The notes beneath the pieces are model-generated. The model saw only the letters and a program-made list of their open reading frames with translations, had not been told where the DNA came from and made no database searches. The position numbers and the translations under genes are program-made. Shown here one piece after another: positions 59,643 to 64,000 of a stretch of 64,000 nt of DNA. The number at the start of each line of letters is the position of its first letter. The stretch's first letter is position 1. Location of the stretch: contig CAJXSZ010000002.1 in the NCBI GenBank assembly GCA_913060815.1, positions 186,001 to 250,000 of the forward strand, written 5' to 3'. The DNA comes from an uncultured Sulfitobacter sp. (GTDB lineage Bacteria; Pseudomonadota; Alphaproteobacteria; Rhodobacterales; Rhodobacteraceae).

Positions 59643-60122
59643 ATGGCCGAGGCCGAAGCAACACCAGCACAATCCCCACAACTGCGCGTTTTGGGTCAGT
59701 TCATCCGCGATATGTCATTCGAAAACATCATGGCCCAAAAAGGCGCGCCCAGCGACGTGCAGCCTGACGTACAGGTTCAGGTGAACCTTGATGCGAAAAA
59801 GCGCACTGCCGAGAATCAGTACGAGACCGCGATCAAGCTCAACGTGACCTCCAAGGCGAAAGAGGGCGATGCCACGCTCTTCGTGCTCGAGATCGACTAT
59901 GTCGGCATTTTCGACATTCAGGATGTCCCAGAAGAGCAGCTGCACCCCTTCCTGCTGATCGAGTGCCCGCGCATGATTTTCCCGTTCCTGCGCCGCATCG
60001 TGAGCGACGTGACGCGCGACGGTGGCTTCCCACCGCTCAACCTCGAGAACATTGACTTCGTATCATTGTACCGCAACGAGATTGCCCGTCGACAGTCAGA
60101 GGCACAGCCTGCAGACGCCTAA
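59643..60122 (+). CDS. secB: protein-export chaperone SecB
   Basis: 159 residues from the ATG at 59643 with AAAAAGGAGTG upstream. A homotetrameric chaperone that keeps preproteins unfolded and hands them to SecA. Family motifs are VLGQFIRDMSFENIMAQ near the N-terminus, HPFLLIECPRMIFPFLRRIVSDVTRDGGFPPL, and the acidic N-terminal AEAEATPAQSP. The terminator of this gene lies inside the opposing dnaQ gene. Confidence 0.97.
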   Translation: MAEAEATPAQSPQLRVLGQFIRDMSFENIMAQKGAPSDVQPDVQVQVNLDAKKRTAENQYETAIKLNVTSKAKEGDATLFVLEIDYVGIFDIQDVPEEQLHPFLLIECPRMIFPFLRRIVSDVTRDGGFPPLNLENIDFVSLYRNEIARRQSEAQPADA

Positions 60123-60126
60123 GCTT

Positions 60127-60813
60127 TCAAGCTTTTAGCCAGACAGCATCGCCGCCCAATTTGCCGACAAATTCGGCATGGGCGGCGTTTTCTTTTTCGG
60201 TAAGCCGTGACGGCAATGGTATCGCGCGCGGACGCGGCGTCCACTCGGTGTTGATGTCGCCGGCCTTTGGTTCTGCGCGCGTAGACAGGCCAAAATCCGG
60301 CTGCTTTCCACCAATGAGCTCCAGATAGACCTCTGCCAGAATTTCACTGTCGAGCAGGGCACCGTGCAGCGTACGCGCATCGTTGTTGATGCCAAAGCGT
60401 CGGCACAAGGCATCGAGCGATGACGGAGAGCCGGGGAATTTCTTGCGCGCTATTGCGAGAGTATCAACAGCCTGCTCCCACGGGAGTTGACGTAAGCCCA
60501 TTTTGCCCAATTCGAAGTTCAAGAACTTCATATCGAAAGCGGCATTGTGGATGATCATTTTGCTGTCGCCGACAAAATCCAGAAATGCCTGTCCAACCTG
60601 CGCAAATTTCGGCTTGTCACGGAGGAAGTCATCGCCAAGCCCGTGCACTTCAAACGCCTCTTGTGGCATGCCGCGTTCCGGGTTGATGTATTCGTGAAAT
60701 GTCTTGCCCGTGGCCACATGGCCCTTCAGCTCAACCGCACCAATCTCGACAATCCTGTCGCCTGTTTTGGGGTCAAAGCCTGTGGTTTCGGTATCGAGGA
60801 CGATCTCACGCAT
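60127..60813 (-). CDS. dnaQ: DNA polymerase III epsilon subunit (proofreading exonuclease)
   Basis: 228 residues. DEDDh 3'-5' exonuclease motifs: ExoI VLDTETTGFDP (about 5-15), ExoII IIHNAAFDMKF, ExoIII HGALLDSEILAEVY. The C-terminus (about 190-228) would bind the alpha subunit. It begins 8 bases before the coaE stop and ends 5 bases past the convergent secB. Last gene of maf-aroE-coaE-dnaQ. Confidence 0.95.
   Translation of the reverse strand: MREIVLDTETTGFDPKTGDRIVEIGAVELKGHVATGKTFHEYINPERGMPQEAFEVHGLGDDFLRDKPKFAQVGQAFLDFVGDSKMIIHNAAFDMKFLNFELGKMGLRQLPWEQAVDTLAIARKKFPGSPSSLDALCRRFGINNDARTLHGALLDSEILAEVYLELIGGKQPDFGLSTRAEPKAGDINTEWTPRPRAIPLPSRLTEKENAAHAEFVGKLGGDAVWLKA
60150..60197 (+). terminator. 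secB terminator embedded in the dnaQ coding sequence
   Basis: On the plus strand CGCCGCCCA (60150-60158) pairs with TGGGCGGCG (60179-60187), and nested TGCCG (60162-60166) with CGGCA (60174-60178). TTTTCTTTTT follows. The stem encodes the final residues of DnaQ on the other strand. It begins 27 bases after the secB stop. Confidence 0.85.
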
Positions 60814-61393
60814 TAAACTGGCTCCGAATGGTTTTCACTATGTTTTGCACCTGCAAACGTGCGTGTTCAAGGGTGTCCGTTTCAATGACATAGGTCGCGC
60901 GGGCGAATTTTTCAGCCGCAGGAAGCTGCTTTTCTTTGATTGCGTGGAATTGCGCGAGGGTCATCGTGCCGCGGGCCAGAACGCGGGCCTCTTGCGTTGC
61001 ATCATCCGTGATGACGCAGGCCGTCGCATCAACGCGCGCCTCTCCGCCAGTCTCGAACAAAAGGGGGATATCGAGCACGACGATATCTGCCTTGGCGTTC
61101 CCTAGAAATTCGGCGCGGTCCTGACCGACCAGCGGATGCACAATCGTCTCGATGTGTTTAAGCGCCGCCGGGTCGCGGGCTATGATCTCTTTGAGGGCAG
61201 GGCGGGACACAGCCCCATCAATAACAGCATCCGGAAACGCTTCTTCAAATGGCGCAACTGCAGCGCCTCCTTTTGAGTAAAGCCGGTGGACAGCCGCATC
61301 CGCATCCCAGACGGCGCACCCTTCATCCGCGAACATTTGCGCAGTCGTGGATTTACCCATCCCGATGGAGCCTGTCAGACCCAGCTTGAACAT
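60806..61393 (-). CDS. coaE: dephospho-CoA kinase
   Basis: 195 residues from the ATG at 61393, whose first base is also the last base of the aroE stop (TGATG). P-loop GLTGSIGMGKSTTAQMF (about 4-20), the CoaE Asp in WDADAAVHRLY, and VVLDIPLLFETG. It phosphorylates dephospho-CoA in the last step of CoA synthesis. A longer frame upstream is inside aroE and was not chosen. Confidence 0.96.
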   Translation of the reverse strand: MFKLGLTGSIGMGKSTTAQMFADEGCAVWDADAAVHRLYSKGGAAVAPFEEAFPDAVIDGAVSRPALKEIIARDPAALKHIETIVHPLVGQDRAEFLGNAKADIVVLDIPLLFETGGEARVDATACVITDDATQEARVLARGTMTLAQFHAIKEKQLPAAEKFARATYVIETDTLEHARLQVQNIVKTIRSQFNA

Positions 61394-62229
61394 CAACGCA
61401 ACGCCGCCGCGCGGGTGGCACGGTCTACATCGGGGCGACGACCGAACCACCGCTCGAATGCGGGAACCGCCTGATGCAGGAGCATCCCAAGACCATCAAC
61501 CGCCACACATCCAGCTTCTTCTGCCGTTGCAAGGAGCTTTGTCTTGAGCGGAGCGTAGACAAGATCGGTCACAACTGTCGTTGCGTGCAATCCGTCGAGT
61601 GGTACGCGCAGCTCAGGCTTACCAATCATCCCCAGCGAAGTCGTATTCACCAATAGCGCTGCATCATCGACCATATTTCCGGCCTGCAACCAATCAAACA
61701 CCCTTACGCGGCTGCCAAACTCTTTTTGCAAAACCTCCGCACGGACACGGGTACGGTTTGAGAGCAAAATTTCGGGAACGCCCGCTTCGAGAAGAGAGGA
61801 CATCACCGCCCGCGCCGCACCCCCAGCGCCAAGAACAGCAGCAGGGCCGCTTCGCGGGTTCCAGGACGGCGCACCTGCTTTCAAATTCTCGATAAAGCCA
61901 TATCCGTCTGTATTATCGGCATGAATCTTTCCATCTTTGCGGAAAATCAGCGTATTCGCCGCACCGATCAGGATCGCCCGATCCGTAATCAGATCAGCAA
62001 TTTCCATGACGGCCTCTTTATGCGGTATCGTGATGTTGACCCCGACAAAGCCCATAGTGGGCAACGTACGCAGAACATTTTCGAGGTTGTCAGCACTCAC
62101 ATCCATGGGGATGTAATGGCCGGGTATCCCATAAGTTTTAAGCCAGTGGCGATGCAACTGTGGCGATTTTGAATGCGCAATAGGGGAGCCGATGACACCA
62201 GCGAGGGGAATACGGGAAAGTTCGGTCAT
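61393..62229 (-). CDS. aroE: shikimate dehydrogenase (NADP+)
   Basis: 278 residues. Reduces 3-dehydroshikimate in the aromatic pathway. N-terminal substrate motif GVIGSPIAHSKSPQLH, catalytic Lys in NITIPHKE, Asp in ADNTDGYGF, and NADP-loop VLGAGGAARAVM. Coupled both to maf (4-base overlap, ATGA) and coaE. Confidence 0.97.
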   Translation of the reverse strand: MTELSRIPLAGVIGSPIAHSKSPQLHRHWLKTYGIPGHYIPMDVSADNLENVLRTLPTMGFVGVNITIPHKEAVMEIADLITDRAILIGAANTLIFRKDGKIHADNTDGYGFIENLKAGAPSWNPRSGPAAVLGAGGAARAVMSSLLEAGVPEILLSNRTRVRAEVLQKEFGSRVRVFDWLQAGNMVDDAALLVNTTSLGMIGKPELRVPLDGLHATTVVTDLVYAPLKTKLLATAEEAGCVAVDGLGMLLHQAVPAFERWFGRRPDVDRATRAAALR

Positions 62230-62825
62230 TGAGCAATATCTCCACGTAGCGTTAGGTAGTTCAGGATTTCCAACAAAGGCATGCCGAGGACGTTAAAGTA
62301 ATCCCCCTCAATACGCGAGAACAGCCGCACACCCTCTTCCTCGAGCTTATAGGCACCCACAGCGTGTCGTATGCTGTCCCAATTGCGCTCGACATAATCT
62401 GTGAGGTAAGGGTCGCTTGCATCACGCATACGTAATCGGACAACTCCGATGTGGCGCCAAAGCGGTTTGCCGTCCTCGTAGATTACAGCCGCGGACAGCA
62501 GTGTATGCCGATCACCGCGCATTGATTGAAGCTGTGCCAGTGCTTGTTCTGGCGTTTCAGGCTTGCTCAGGAGGTTTCCACCGTGTTCCAATACCTGATC
62601 ACAGCCGATAACCAAGGCACCGGCATTCTTGTCACTTACCTTCGAGGCTTTCATTTCGGCCAACGCATCGGCAATATCGCGCGGTGGTGCACCCTCGGAA
62701 ACGAGCGATGCTTTGATCATCTCTTCGTCTACACGCGCAACCTGCACCTCATGCGCGACGGCTGCCCGAGTCAGCATCTGAGTTCGGATGCTGGAACCAG
62801 ACGCCAGGATGATGGGGACACTCAT
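62226..62825 (-). CDS. maf: Maf family nucleoside triphosphate pyrophosphatase
   Basis: 199 residues. Hydrolyses non-canonical or canonical NTPs (e.g. dTTP/UTP or 7-methyl-GTP) to monophosphates. N-terminal ILASGSSIRTQML is the Maf signature; VIGCDQVLEHGG carries the catalytic Asp, and VGAYKLEEEGVRLFSRIEGDYFNVLGMPL is the conserved C-terminal region. It heads the maf-aroE-coaE-dnaQ operon. Its start codon overlaps a perfect DnaA box, so its promoter lies in the origin. Confidence 0.93.
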   Translation of the reverse strand: MSVPIILASGSSIRTQMLTRAAVAHEVQVARVDEEMIKASLVSEGAPPRDIADALAEMKASKVSDKNAGALVIGCDQVLEHGGNLLSKPETPEQALAQLQSMRGDRHTLLSAAVIYEDGKPLWRHIGVVRLRMRDASDPYLTDYVERNWDSIRHAVGAYKLEEEGVRLFSRIEGDYFNVLGMPLLEILNYLTLRGDIAQ

Positions 62826-62833
62826 GTGGATAA
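62825..62833 (-). promoter_or_regulatory. DnaA box, perfect consensus
   Basis: TGTGGATAA, the complement of TTATCCACA, overlapping the first base of the maf start codon. Confidence 0.85.
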
Positions 62834-62890
62834 CTCATGCATAGTCTTAAGGATTTCCTAACAACAAGGTGTCGACAATTAGGGAGCCAA

Positions 62891-62929
62891 GTTCAAGAGG
62901 GGGAGAAGTGCATACTTCCACCTTTGAAC
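62891..62929. repeat. interrupted dyad in oriC
   Basis: GTTCAA-g-AGG-gggga-GAAGT-gcat-ACTTC-ca-CCT-TTGAAC: three consecutive pairs of complementary arms (6, 3 and 5 bases) around a GCAT centre. It lies between the two perfect DnaA boxes and could form a cruciform or be a protein-binding dyad. Confidence 0.7.
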
Positions 62930-63005
62930 CACCAGATTCCCCCACCGTGGAAAAGAACAATTCTACGGTTTAGTAACTTGAGTGAGGGCAACTAAACTCA
63001 CAGTC

Positions 63006-63014
63006 TTATCCACA
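63006..63014 (+). promoter_or_regulatory. DnaA box, perfect consensus
   Basis: TTATCCACA, followed by the A/T-rich block starting about 63047. Confidence 0.85.
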
Positions 63015-63123
63015 AATTTTGACCAGTTCGGCTTCCATCAAGTATTTGGAATATAATATAAAAATTTTCATTCTGAAAGATATCAACCATCTCTTTGCTG
63101 CTCGCGAAAAGACTATGACGTTC

Positions 63124-63146
63124 TGGGGATAAGAATTTGATCCACA
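63124..63146. promoter_or_regulatory. pair of near-consensus DnaA boxes
   Basis: TGGGGATAA (63124-63132; complement TTATCCCCA, one mismatch) and TGATCCACA (63138-63146, one mismatch), in opposite orientation and five bases apart. Confidence 0.6.
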
Positions 63147-63230
63147 GATTTTCGCGTGCCTACTTAAAACAACAATCTTTCTTTCTTTACTTATTATTAT
63201 AAAGAGAGGGCCAAGAGCGGAGAGAAAACT

Positions 63231-63680
63231 ATGGGTGATATCCTGAGCACGGCGTATCCTTGGATCAAGGGTATTCATATTATGGCGGTGATCTCATGGA
63301 TGGCAGGGTTGTTCTATCTTCCGCGCCTTATGGTGCACCATACAGAGCGTGTGGGCCTTAGCGGAGAAACCCATGATCTGTTTGCAATGATGGAGTACAA
63401 GCTGGCCAAAGTGATCATGCAGCCTGCGATGATGGCAACGTGGATCTTCGGTCTGTTGTTGGTATCGACGCCTGGTATTGTCTACTGGGGTGATGTTTGG
63501 CCATGGCTCAAAGGGGCGGGAGTTATCGCTATGACCGTTTTTCACGTCTGGCTGATGCGGCGCATGCGTGGCTTTCAGGCGGGTGAGAATACCATGACCG
63601 GCAAGCAATACCGCATGATGAATGAGGTGCCCACGCTGCTGATGATCCTGATCGTCTTTTCGGTGACGGTGAAGTTCTAA
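63231..63680 (+). CDS. hemJ: protoporphyrinogen oxidase HemJ
   Basis: 149 residues, four predicted membrane helices. HemJ oxidises protoporphyrinogen IX to protoporphyrin IX in the inner membrane. Conserved features are WIKGIHIMAVISWMAGLFYLPRLMVHHTE (His and Arg of the active face), MEYKLAKVIMQPAM and FHVWLMRRMRGFQ. GGAGAGAAAAC lies before the ATG. It follows oriC directly and is followed by rho after 133 bases. Confidence 0.95.
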   Translation: MGDILSTAYPWIKGIHIMAVISWMAGLFYLPRLMVHHTERVGLSGETHDLFAMMEYKLAKVIMQPAMMATWIFGLLLVSTPGIVYWGDVWPWLKGAGVIAMTVFHVWLMRRMRGFQAGENTMTGKQYRMMNEVPTLLMILIVFSVTVKF

Positions 63681-63692
63681 AACGTACCTAGA

Positions 63693-63721
63693 TTGACAGC
63701 TCATGACGAGCGGCGTATTGC
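63693..63721 (+). promoter_or_regulatory. sigma-70-type promoter for rho
   Basis: TTGACA (63693-63698), 17-base spacer, TATTGC (63716-63721). Transcription would begin near 63728. A hairpin CCCC-gttc-GGGG (63732-63743) then lies at the start of the rho leader, with ATGAGC after it complementary to GCTCAT at 63699-63704. Confidence 0.6.
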
Positions 63722-63813
63722 AGATGCATCGCCCCGTTCGGGGATGAGCCAACCCGATCTTATTTTGCAAGACCGACCCGACAGCGCCTTTGCGCGGGGT
63801 TAAGGATATTTCC

Positions 63814-64000
63814 ATGACACAAGAAACACTCAACCTCGCTGATCTGAAGAAGCAATCACCCAAATCATTGCTGTCTATGGCTGAAGAGCTGGAGATCGAA
63901 AACGCGTCAACGATGCGTAAGGGCGAGATGATGTTCCAGATTCTGCGGGAACGCGCGGATGAAGGCTGGGAGATTTCCGGTGACGGGGTTCTTGAGGTTC
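63814..64000 (+). CDS. rho: transcription termination factor Rho (partial, C-terminus outside window)
   Basis: The first 62 codons are visible from the ATG at 63814 (AAGGA upstream). The sequence MTQETLNLADLKKQSPKSLL ... NASTMRKGEMMFQILRERAD is the Rho N-terminal helical domain, which precedes the RNA-binding CSD fold. Rho is a hexameric RNA helicase that ends transcription. The leader from the promoter at 63693 is about 86 bases with a GC hairpin, possibly for autoregulation, which is known for rho in other bacteria. The frame runs off the right edge. Confidence 0.92.
   Translation, partial: MTQETLNLADLKKQSPKSLLSMAEELEIENASTMRKGEMMFQILRERADEGWEISGDGVLEV

Follow-up and report, generated by a model that had tools for sequence, protein, structure and literature searches.

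Among the closest described systems, the origin of Caulobacter crescentus (Cori) lies between hemE and the COG1806 gene CC0001 (PMC1914354). Within the Rhodobacteraceae, the oriCs of 101 strains have been predicted by Ori-Finder on the basis of DnaA boxes, GC disparity, the local GC minimum, and closeness to parAB; these origins come from the same family as the DNA considered here, and the available part of that report does not describe their flanking genes or fine structure (PMC6699656). The parAB genes have been recommended as an anchor for the alphaproteobacterial ori (PMC8116508), and the shift in GC skew, which can spread widely, cannot by itself locate it (PMC1914354). Below the level of gene order, the BUS rule specifies a DnaA box, a spacer of 0 to 16 bp, and at least three trios (PMC8287927). 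Neither a Sulfitobacter origin nor a maf-hemJ origin is named in the literature titles and abstracts searched.

The locus studied here shares with Cori the genes maf, aroE, coaE, and dnaQ on one side and hem genes and rho on the other, a DnaA box (R4) with the G-box sequence TGATCCACA (PMC4285127), and, in gaps from across the genus, CtrA- and IHF-type sites. Unlike Cori, it is not flanked by hemE and COG1806, the neighbors of the Caulobacter and Rickettsia origins, and it carries perfect E. coli-type boxes; its one CtrA-type site is mismatched and it has no recognizable IHF site. Judged from its sequence, this member of the Sulfitobacter group of the Rhodobacteraceae very probably has its chromosomal replication origin in the gap between maf and hemJ, as the class-level alphaproteobacterial origin minus COG1806 and with hemE moved. 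This reading is based on the conservation of the box cluster, on a skew breakpoint obtained jointly with control for strand, on parS and parAB nearby, and on class-level gene order, and it makes the gap an ordinary origin of a known kind, from which both classic neighbor genes are gone.

The maf-hemJ gap and its conservation

The window, meaning the whole 64,000-nucleotide stretch that was analyzed (C2:186001-250000), belongs to a 3.51-Mb draft genome in 45 contigs. Close to its end, maf (62226 to 62825, minus strand; Pfam PF02545) and hemJ (63231 to 63680, plus strand) are transcribed away from each other. The hemJ product matches PF03653 at 185.6 bits against a cut-off of 34.2, and its score of 126.2 bits with the NCBIfam HemJ model is under the cut-off of 138.05. 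Downstream of hemJ, beyond the window, Pfam and NCBIfam matches identify rho, mnmE, mnmG, rsmG, parA, and parB. The features of the gap are as follows.

62826 to 63230, no strand: proposed oriC, the 405-bp gap between diverging maf and hemJ (from boxes, conservation, parS, and skew)
62825 to 62833, minus strand: DnaA box R1, perfect, sharing one base with the maf start codon
62847 to 62861, plus strand: CtrA-type site TTAA-N7-CTAA, one mismatch against TTAA-N7-TTAA
62949 to 62960, plus strand: GGANAAGGANAA-like block conserved in the genus, here GGAAAAGAACAA
63006 to 63014, plus strand: DnaA box R2, perfect
63036 to 63048, minus strand: approximate place of the genus IHF-type site, at which this gap is negative at one mismatch
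63045 to 63080, no strand: AT-rich block, up to 95% AT in 21 bp
63124 to 63132, minus strand: DnaA box R3, one mismatch, TTATCCCCA
63138 to 63146, plus strand: DnaA box R4, one mismatch, TGATCCACA
63160 to 63205, plus strand: conserved pyrimidine- and AT-rich tract after R4 with DnaA-trio-like triplets (from conservation and composition)

The initial annotation had described two perfect boxes in opposite orientation, two one-mismatch boxes, and A/T-rich blocks in a gene-free region from which the genes on both sides point away, and had proposed a likely chromosomal origin; each of these elements was recovered, and the proposal gains from the comparisons below. The boxes are clustered in noncoding DNA, with R3 and R4 forming an inverted pair five bases apart, and the AT peaks of the gap are centered at about 63051 to 63071 and 63171 to 63201, so that by composition it has a putative AT-rich unwinding region of a DnaA-type origin. 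The sole open reading frame of at least 80 amino acids lying mainly in the gap (63006 to 63278, minus strand, 90 amino acids) is without a Pfam match, and nothing in Rfam matched positions 60000 to 64000 at gathering thresholds. A plasmid collection gave two short matches only, both inside the coding part of hemJ. The GGANAAGGANAA-like block inside the proposed origin matched none of the site types tested.

A search for HemJ in 60 genomes, this one included, gave matches in 50, among them 33 of 36 genomes of the genus. In the 30 genus loci examined (this one and 29 relatives, with three more in-genus matches left out), maf and hemJ always diverge around a gap of 392 to 406 bp. A gap of 386 to 434 bp is kept in 36 of 37 named family loci, five of which repeat records among the 30; the closest five HemJ relatives among the named loci are Sulfitobacter records, at 82 to 88% identity. 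The exception is a Paracoccus locus with no maf match, where the next queried gene before hemJ is aroE and four boxes fall within the last 300 bp ahead of hemJ.

The boxes are held in place across the genus. With up to one mismatch, a box occurs at the R1 position in 39 of the 41 genus-set gaps, at R2 in 24, at R3 in 27, and at R4 in all 41. The corresponding counts among 20 other Rhodobacteraceae gaps are 8, 10, 10, and 2, taken over fixed position ranges that miss a few slightly shifted R4 boxes. The R4 core is the most conserved 8-mer among the genus gaps, most relatives having TAATCCACA at the place where this gap has the Caulobacter G-box sequence. Boxes are often few in the 20 other gaps, one of which has none. 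Six loci from Nioella, Alterinioella, and other Rhodobacteraceae (L101 to L103, L105, L112, and L116) have a maf-hemJ gap of similar length with zero to two boxes of up to one mismatch, and box usage seems to have diverged in their origins.

In five of five genomes, with 174 to 281 kb read in each, the best 420-bp cluster of DnaA boxes is the gap, and parS-like sites stand at +3.6 and +5.5 kb from it, nine of the ten being perfect.

Perfect boxes are also in excess genome-wide: in the whole of G000, TTATCCACA occurs perfectly 33 times, against 6 for a reversed control pattern. Other close pairs of perfect boxes (C1:247364/247708, C10:49445/49547, and C11:58977/58997) were set aside, as no other box with at most one mismatch lies within 500 bp of them. 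The last of these (C11:58977-59005, or L012:5978-6006) consists of two same-strand boxes with starts 20 bp apart between two called open reading frames and is possibly a DnaA-regulated promoter or titration site.

Gene order at the locus in other families

The observation that maf and hemJ, and not hemE, are the direct neighbors of the gap holds in this genome, where the single copy of hemE is on contig C33 beside hemC. In five relatives hemE shares a contig with the gap, about 0.13 to 0.91 Mb away from it, and in a sixth it is on another contig. COG1806 (PF03618) gave no match anywhere in this genome, the Caulobacter control being positive.

For other families, the comparison took in every one of the 17 HemJ loci that 24 genomes yielded. 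In 13 of them hemE precedes hemJ and is co-oriented with it, directly before it in 3 of these and with the ferrochelatase gene (hemH) between them in the other 10; one locus (L165) has no hemE match, and the gene there was read as hemH. Among the 10 loci that have both maf and hemE, 6 carry the COG1806 gene between them. In the remaining four (L156, L158, L163, and L166), maf and hemE face each other about 316 to 390 bp apart without COG1806, and these may be possible intermediates between the Caulobacter and Rhodobacteraceae arrangements.

The boxes of other families lie ahead of hemE, being found within 500 bp upstream of it in 10 of 12 testable loci (a count without a shuffle control), and none of the 17 loci has boxes in the 300 bp upstream of hemJ, which in those families is mostly the end of the preceding gene. 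In several of these loci a box leads into triplets rich in CTAC or ACAACA and then into an AT-rich tract immediately ahead of hemE, a block that resembles the one before hemJ in the window. We read the arrangements as a series, from maf-COG1806-ori-hemE-(hemH)-hemJ through maf-ori-hemE-(hemH)-hemJ to the maf-ori-hemJ order seen in the Rhodobacteraceae, in which maf and hemJ adjoin the origin because COG1806 is gone and hemE has moved away.

Strand composition and rival placements of the origin

Skew was followed over 174 contiguous kb of contig C2 and over stretches of four relatives. According to the initial annotation, a skew minimum and a marker-frequency peak elsewhere on the replicon would tell against its proposal. 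Over the 174 kb, the raw cumulative minimum of this genome falls in the gap (63190; +0.4 kb); those of the four relatives lie 18 to 32 kb to the maf side (-30.4 kb in G035, -32.2 kb in G012, -18.3 kb in G022, and -21.2 kb in G014). On the hemJ side, raw cumulative skew climbs from the gap onward; on the maf side, it stays level between about -50 and 0 kb.

Because many maf-side genes, including every one of the 32 at -20 to -10 kb, run toward the gap, third-position skew was compared within gene strands. Pooled in 10-kb bins, it changes across the gap from -0.008 to +0.115 in plus-strand genes and from +0.019 to -0.128 in minus-strand genes. The strand-controlled joint breakpoint of the five genomes is at 0 kb on a 1-kb grid; the next optimum, in a 5-kb listing, is near -30 kb and 18 log-likelihood units lower, with an overdispersion of 1.9 to 3.0. 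The switch in strand composition thus appears at the gap in the joint fit, and single genomes do not pin its position: their best breakpoints are at +56 (this genome), -27, -42, +2, and -18 kb, with this genome favoring +56 kb by 27.7 units and G012 favoring -42 kb by 17.8 units, both before the same overdispersion of 1.9 to 3.0 is considered.

About 50 kb on the maf side (approximately 10000 to 62825 in the window, and likewise in the four relatives) has almost zero net GC skew. Gene direction explains this only partly; in plus-strand genes at -35 to -10 kb, the expected negative third-position skew that is seen further out is missing.

On the scale of a chromosome, skew was sampled in 40 stretches of G014, a single contig with the gap at 123 kb. 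Of the 19 stretches between the gap and 2.25 Mb, 16 have positive skew, and of the 15 between 2.31 Mb and the contig end, 14 have negative skew, half a chromosome away from the gap corresponding to 2.22 Mb; the six that precede the gap, counted from base 1, divide evenly into three negative and three positive. A step model of the 40 samples places the origin best at 100 kb; positions from 4.01 Mb, across the contig ends, to 0.13 Mb come within 15% of the lowest error, and the gap is close to the edge of this range. The sequence GGGNAGGG, which we take to be a polarity motif, occurs 30 times forward and 5 times in reverse in 11 samples from 0.42 to 2.25 Mb, and 8 times forward and 37 times in reverse in the 15 samples that cover the contig from 2.31 Mb onward; its polarity separates the arms at the terminus side and is uninformative close to the gap. 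A search of eight genomes for dif, with what we presume to be its consensus, gave one three-mismatch match only, on the second contig of G012.

If the true origin were in the 0 to 50 kb of flat skew on the maf side, the gap could be a DnaA-responsive promoter for maf and hemJ-rho. The flatness itself, the minima that four of the five genomes have between -18 and -32 kb, and the second joint optimum would speak for this, and the conserved block directly precedes hemJ and could include its promoter. That optimum is nevertheless the poorer one, the top box clusters listed for the maf side in the five genomes have at most two one-mismatch boxes, and the idea that the conserved block serves as the hemJ promoter is made less likely by the other families, which carry their boxes upstream of hemE and not of hemJ. 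We consider this placement very improbable. An origin at dnaA has still less to commend it and would be a great surprise. It might be suggested by records that open at dnaA, as the main contigs of G002, G014, and G035 do (40 to 122 kb off the gap), and the dnaA of this genome is within the flat-skew stretch, but dnaA is separated from the gap by about 42 kb in this genome and by about 40, 78, 98, 122, 127, and 383 kb in six relatives, the maf-gap-hemJ arrangement staying constant while this distance varies, and the rise in skew begins near the gap in the five genomes tested.

That the box cluster arose by chance is the least credible reading of all and borders on the negligible. More box matches do arise in AT-rich DNA such as this; yet among 3,000 dinucleotide shuffles of the gap, none had at least two perfect boxes and none had at least four boxes of up to one mismatch. 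Across the 41 gaps of the genus set, perfect boxes number 41, where shuffles average 0.13, a significance that is overstated because the gaps are related and not independent, and the positions of the boxes are conserved across the genus.

Apart from its dnaA gene, G002 has nine extra weak matches to the DnaA domain (PF00308), eight of them in 270-codon open reading frames and seven of those on the main contig; we presume that these are possibly the helper ATPase of a multicopy transposon.

Proposed initiation and CtrA- and IHF-type sites

From the boxes, conservation, synteny, parS motifs, and skew obtained here, we infer DnaA binding, an opening site, and initiation in the following way. DnaA would bind all four boxes, R1 close to maf, R2 midway, and R3 and R4 as an inverted pair. 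From R4 it would then extend across the pyrimidine- and AT-rich tract toward hemJ. The duplex would open at 63160 to 63205, adjoining R4, and helicase loading would follow; this tract is probably the unwinding region, as its position, conservation, and composition suggest, and may also hold the hemJ promoter. Replication would depart in both directions, with ParB at the parS sites 3.6 and 5.5 kb away handling segregation.

The region after R4 resembles a BUS in having a box, a 13-bp spacer, CTA CTT (3'-GAT-GAA-5' on the other strand), and an AT-rich tract, and it differs in having only two in-phase trios where the available account of the rule has at least three (PMC8287927). The gap accordingly has zero forward matches to the rule; on the other strand it has four, the longest being four triplets after R3 that point away from the tract. 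Over 61 gaps, counted without a shuffle control, matches are forward in 31 and reverse in 22. Runs of at least six NTN triplets before hemJ are found in 23 of 41 genus gaps, against a shuffle mean of 1.5 and a largest value of 5; the window has five such triplets.

A perfect TTAA-N7-TTAA stands 21 to 22 nucleotides past the maf start in 13 of the 41 genus-set gaps, and a site with up to one mismatch is at the same place in 22 and absent in 19, against shuffle means of 0.1 and 1.35, respectively. With any other TTAA spacer of 3 to 12, these gaps yield 0 perfect sites and at most 7. Of the 41 gaps, 25 have an IHF-type site, one mismatch being allowed, at around -190 relative to hemJ (shuffle mean, 0.88). 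Both kinds of site are degenerate in the gap of the window, and this genome encodes CtrA (NF045991; 426 bits against a cut-off of 350). These patterns suggest, as a tentative and on balance unlikely possibility, that in the Sulfitobacter group CtrA may directly control replication via TTAA-N7-TTAA beside R1, perhaps opposed by IHF as in Caulobacter. In Dinoroseobacter shibae, the CtrA phosphorelay affects chromosome number and CtrA is dispensable, its loss being viable; the available text of that study names no origin site (PMC4046655).

If CtrA does act at this site, a direct mechanism would be at hand for the altered chromosome numbers of D. shibae ctrA-phosphorelay mutants, and the positioned CtrA-type site makes direct control of replication by CtrA testable in the Rhodobacterales. 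The very probable placement of the origin in the maf-hemJ gap would fix it for a genus of marine bacteria whose records may open at dnaA, and it would provide a synteny rule for the family: the origin should be sought between maf and hemJ-rho-parAB and not near hemE or dnaA.
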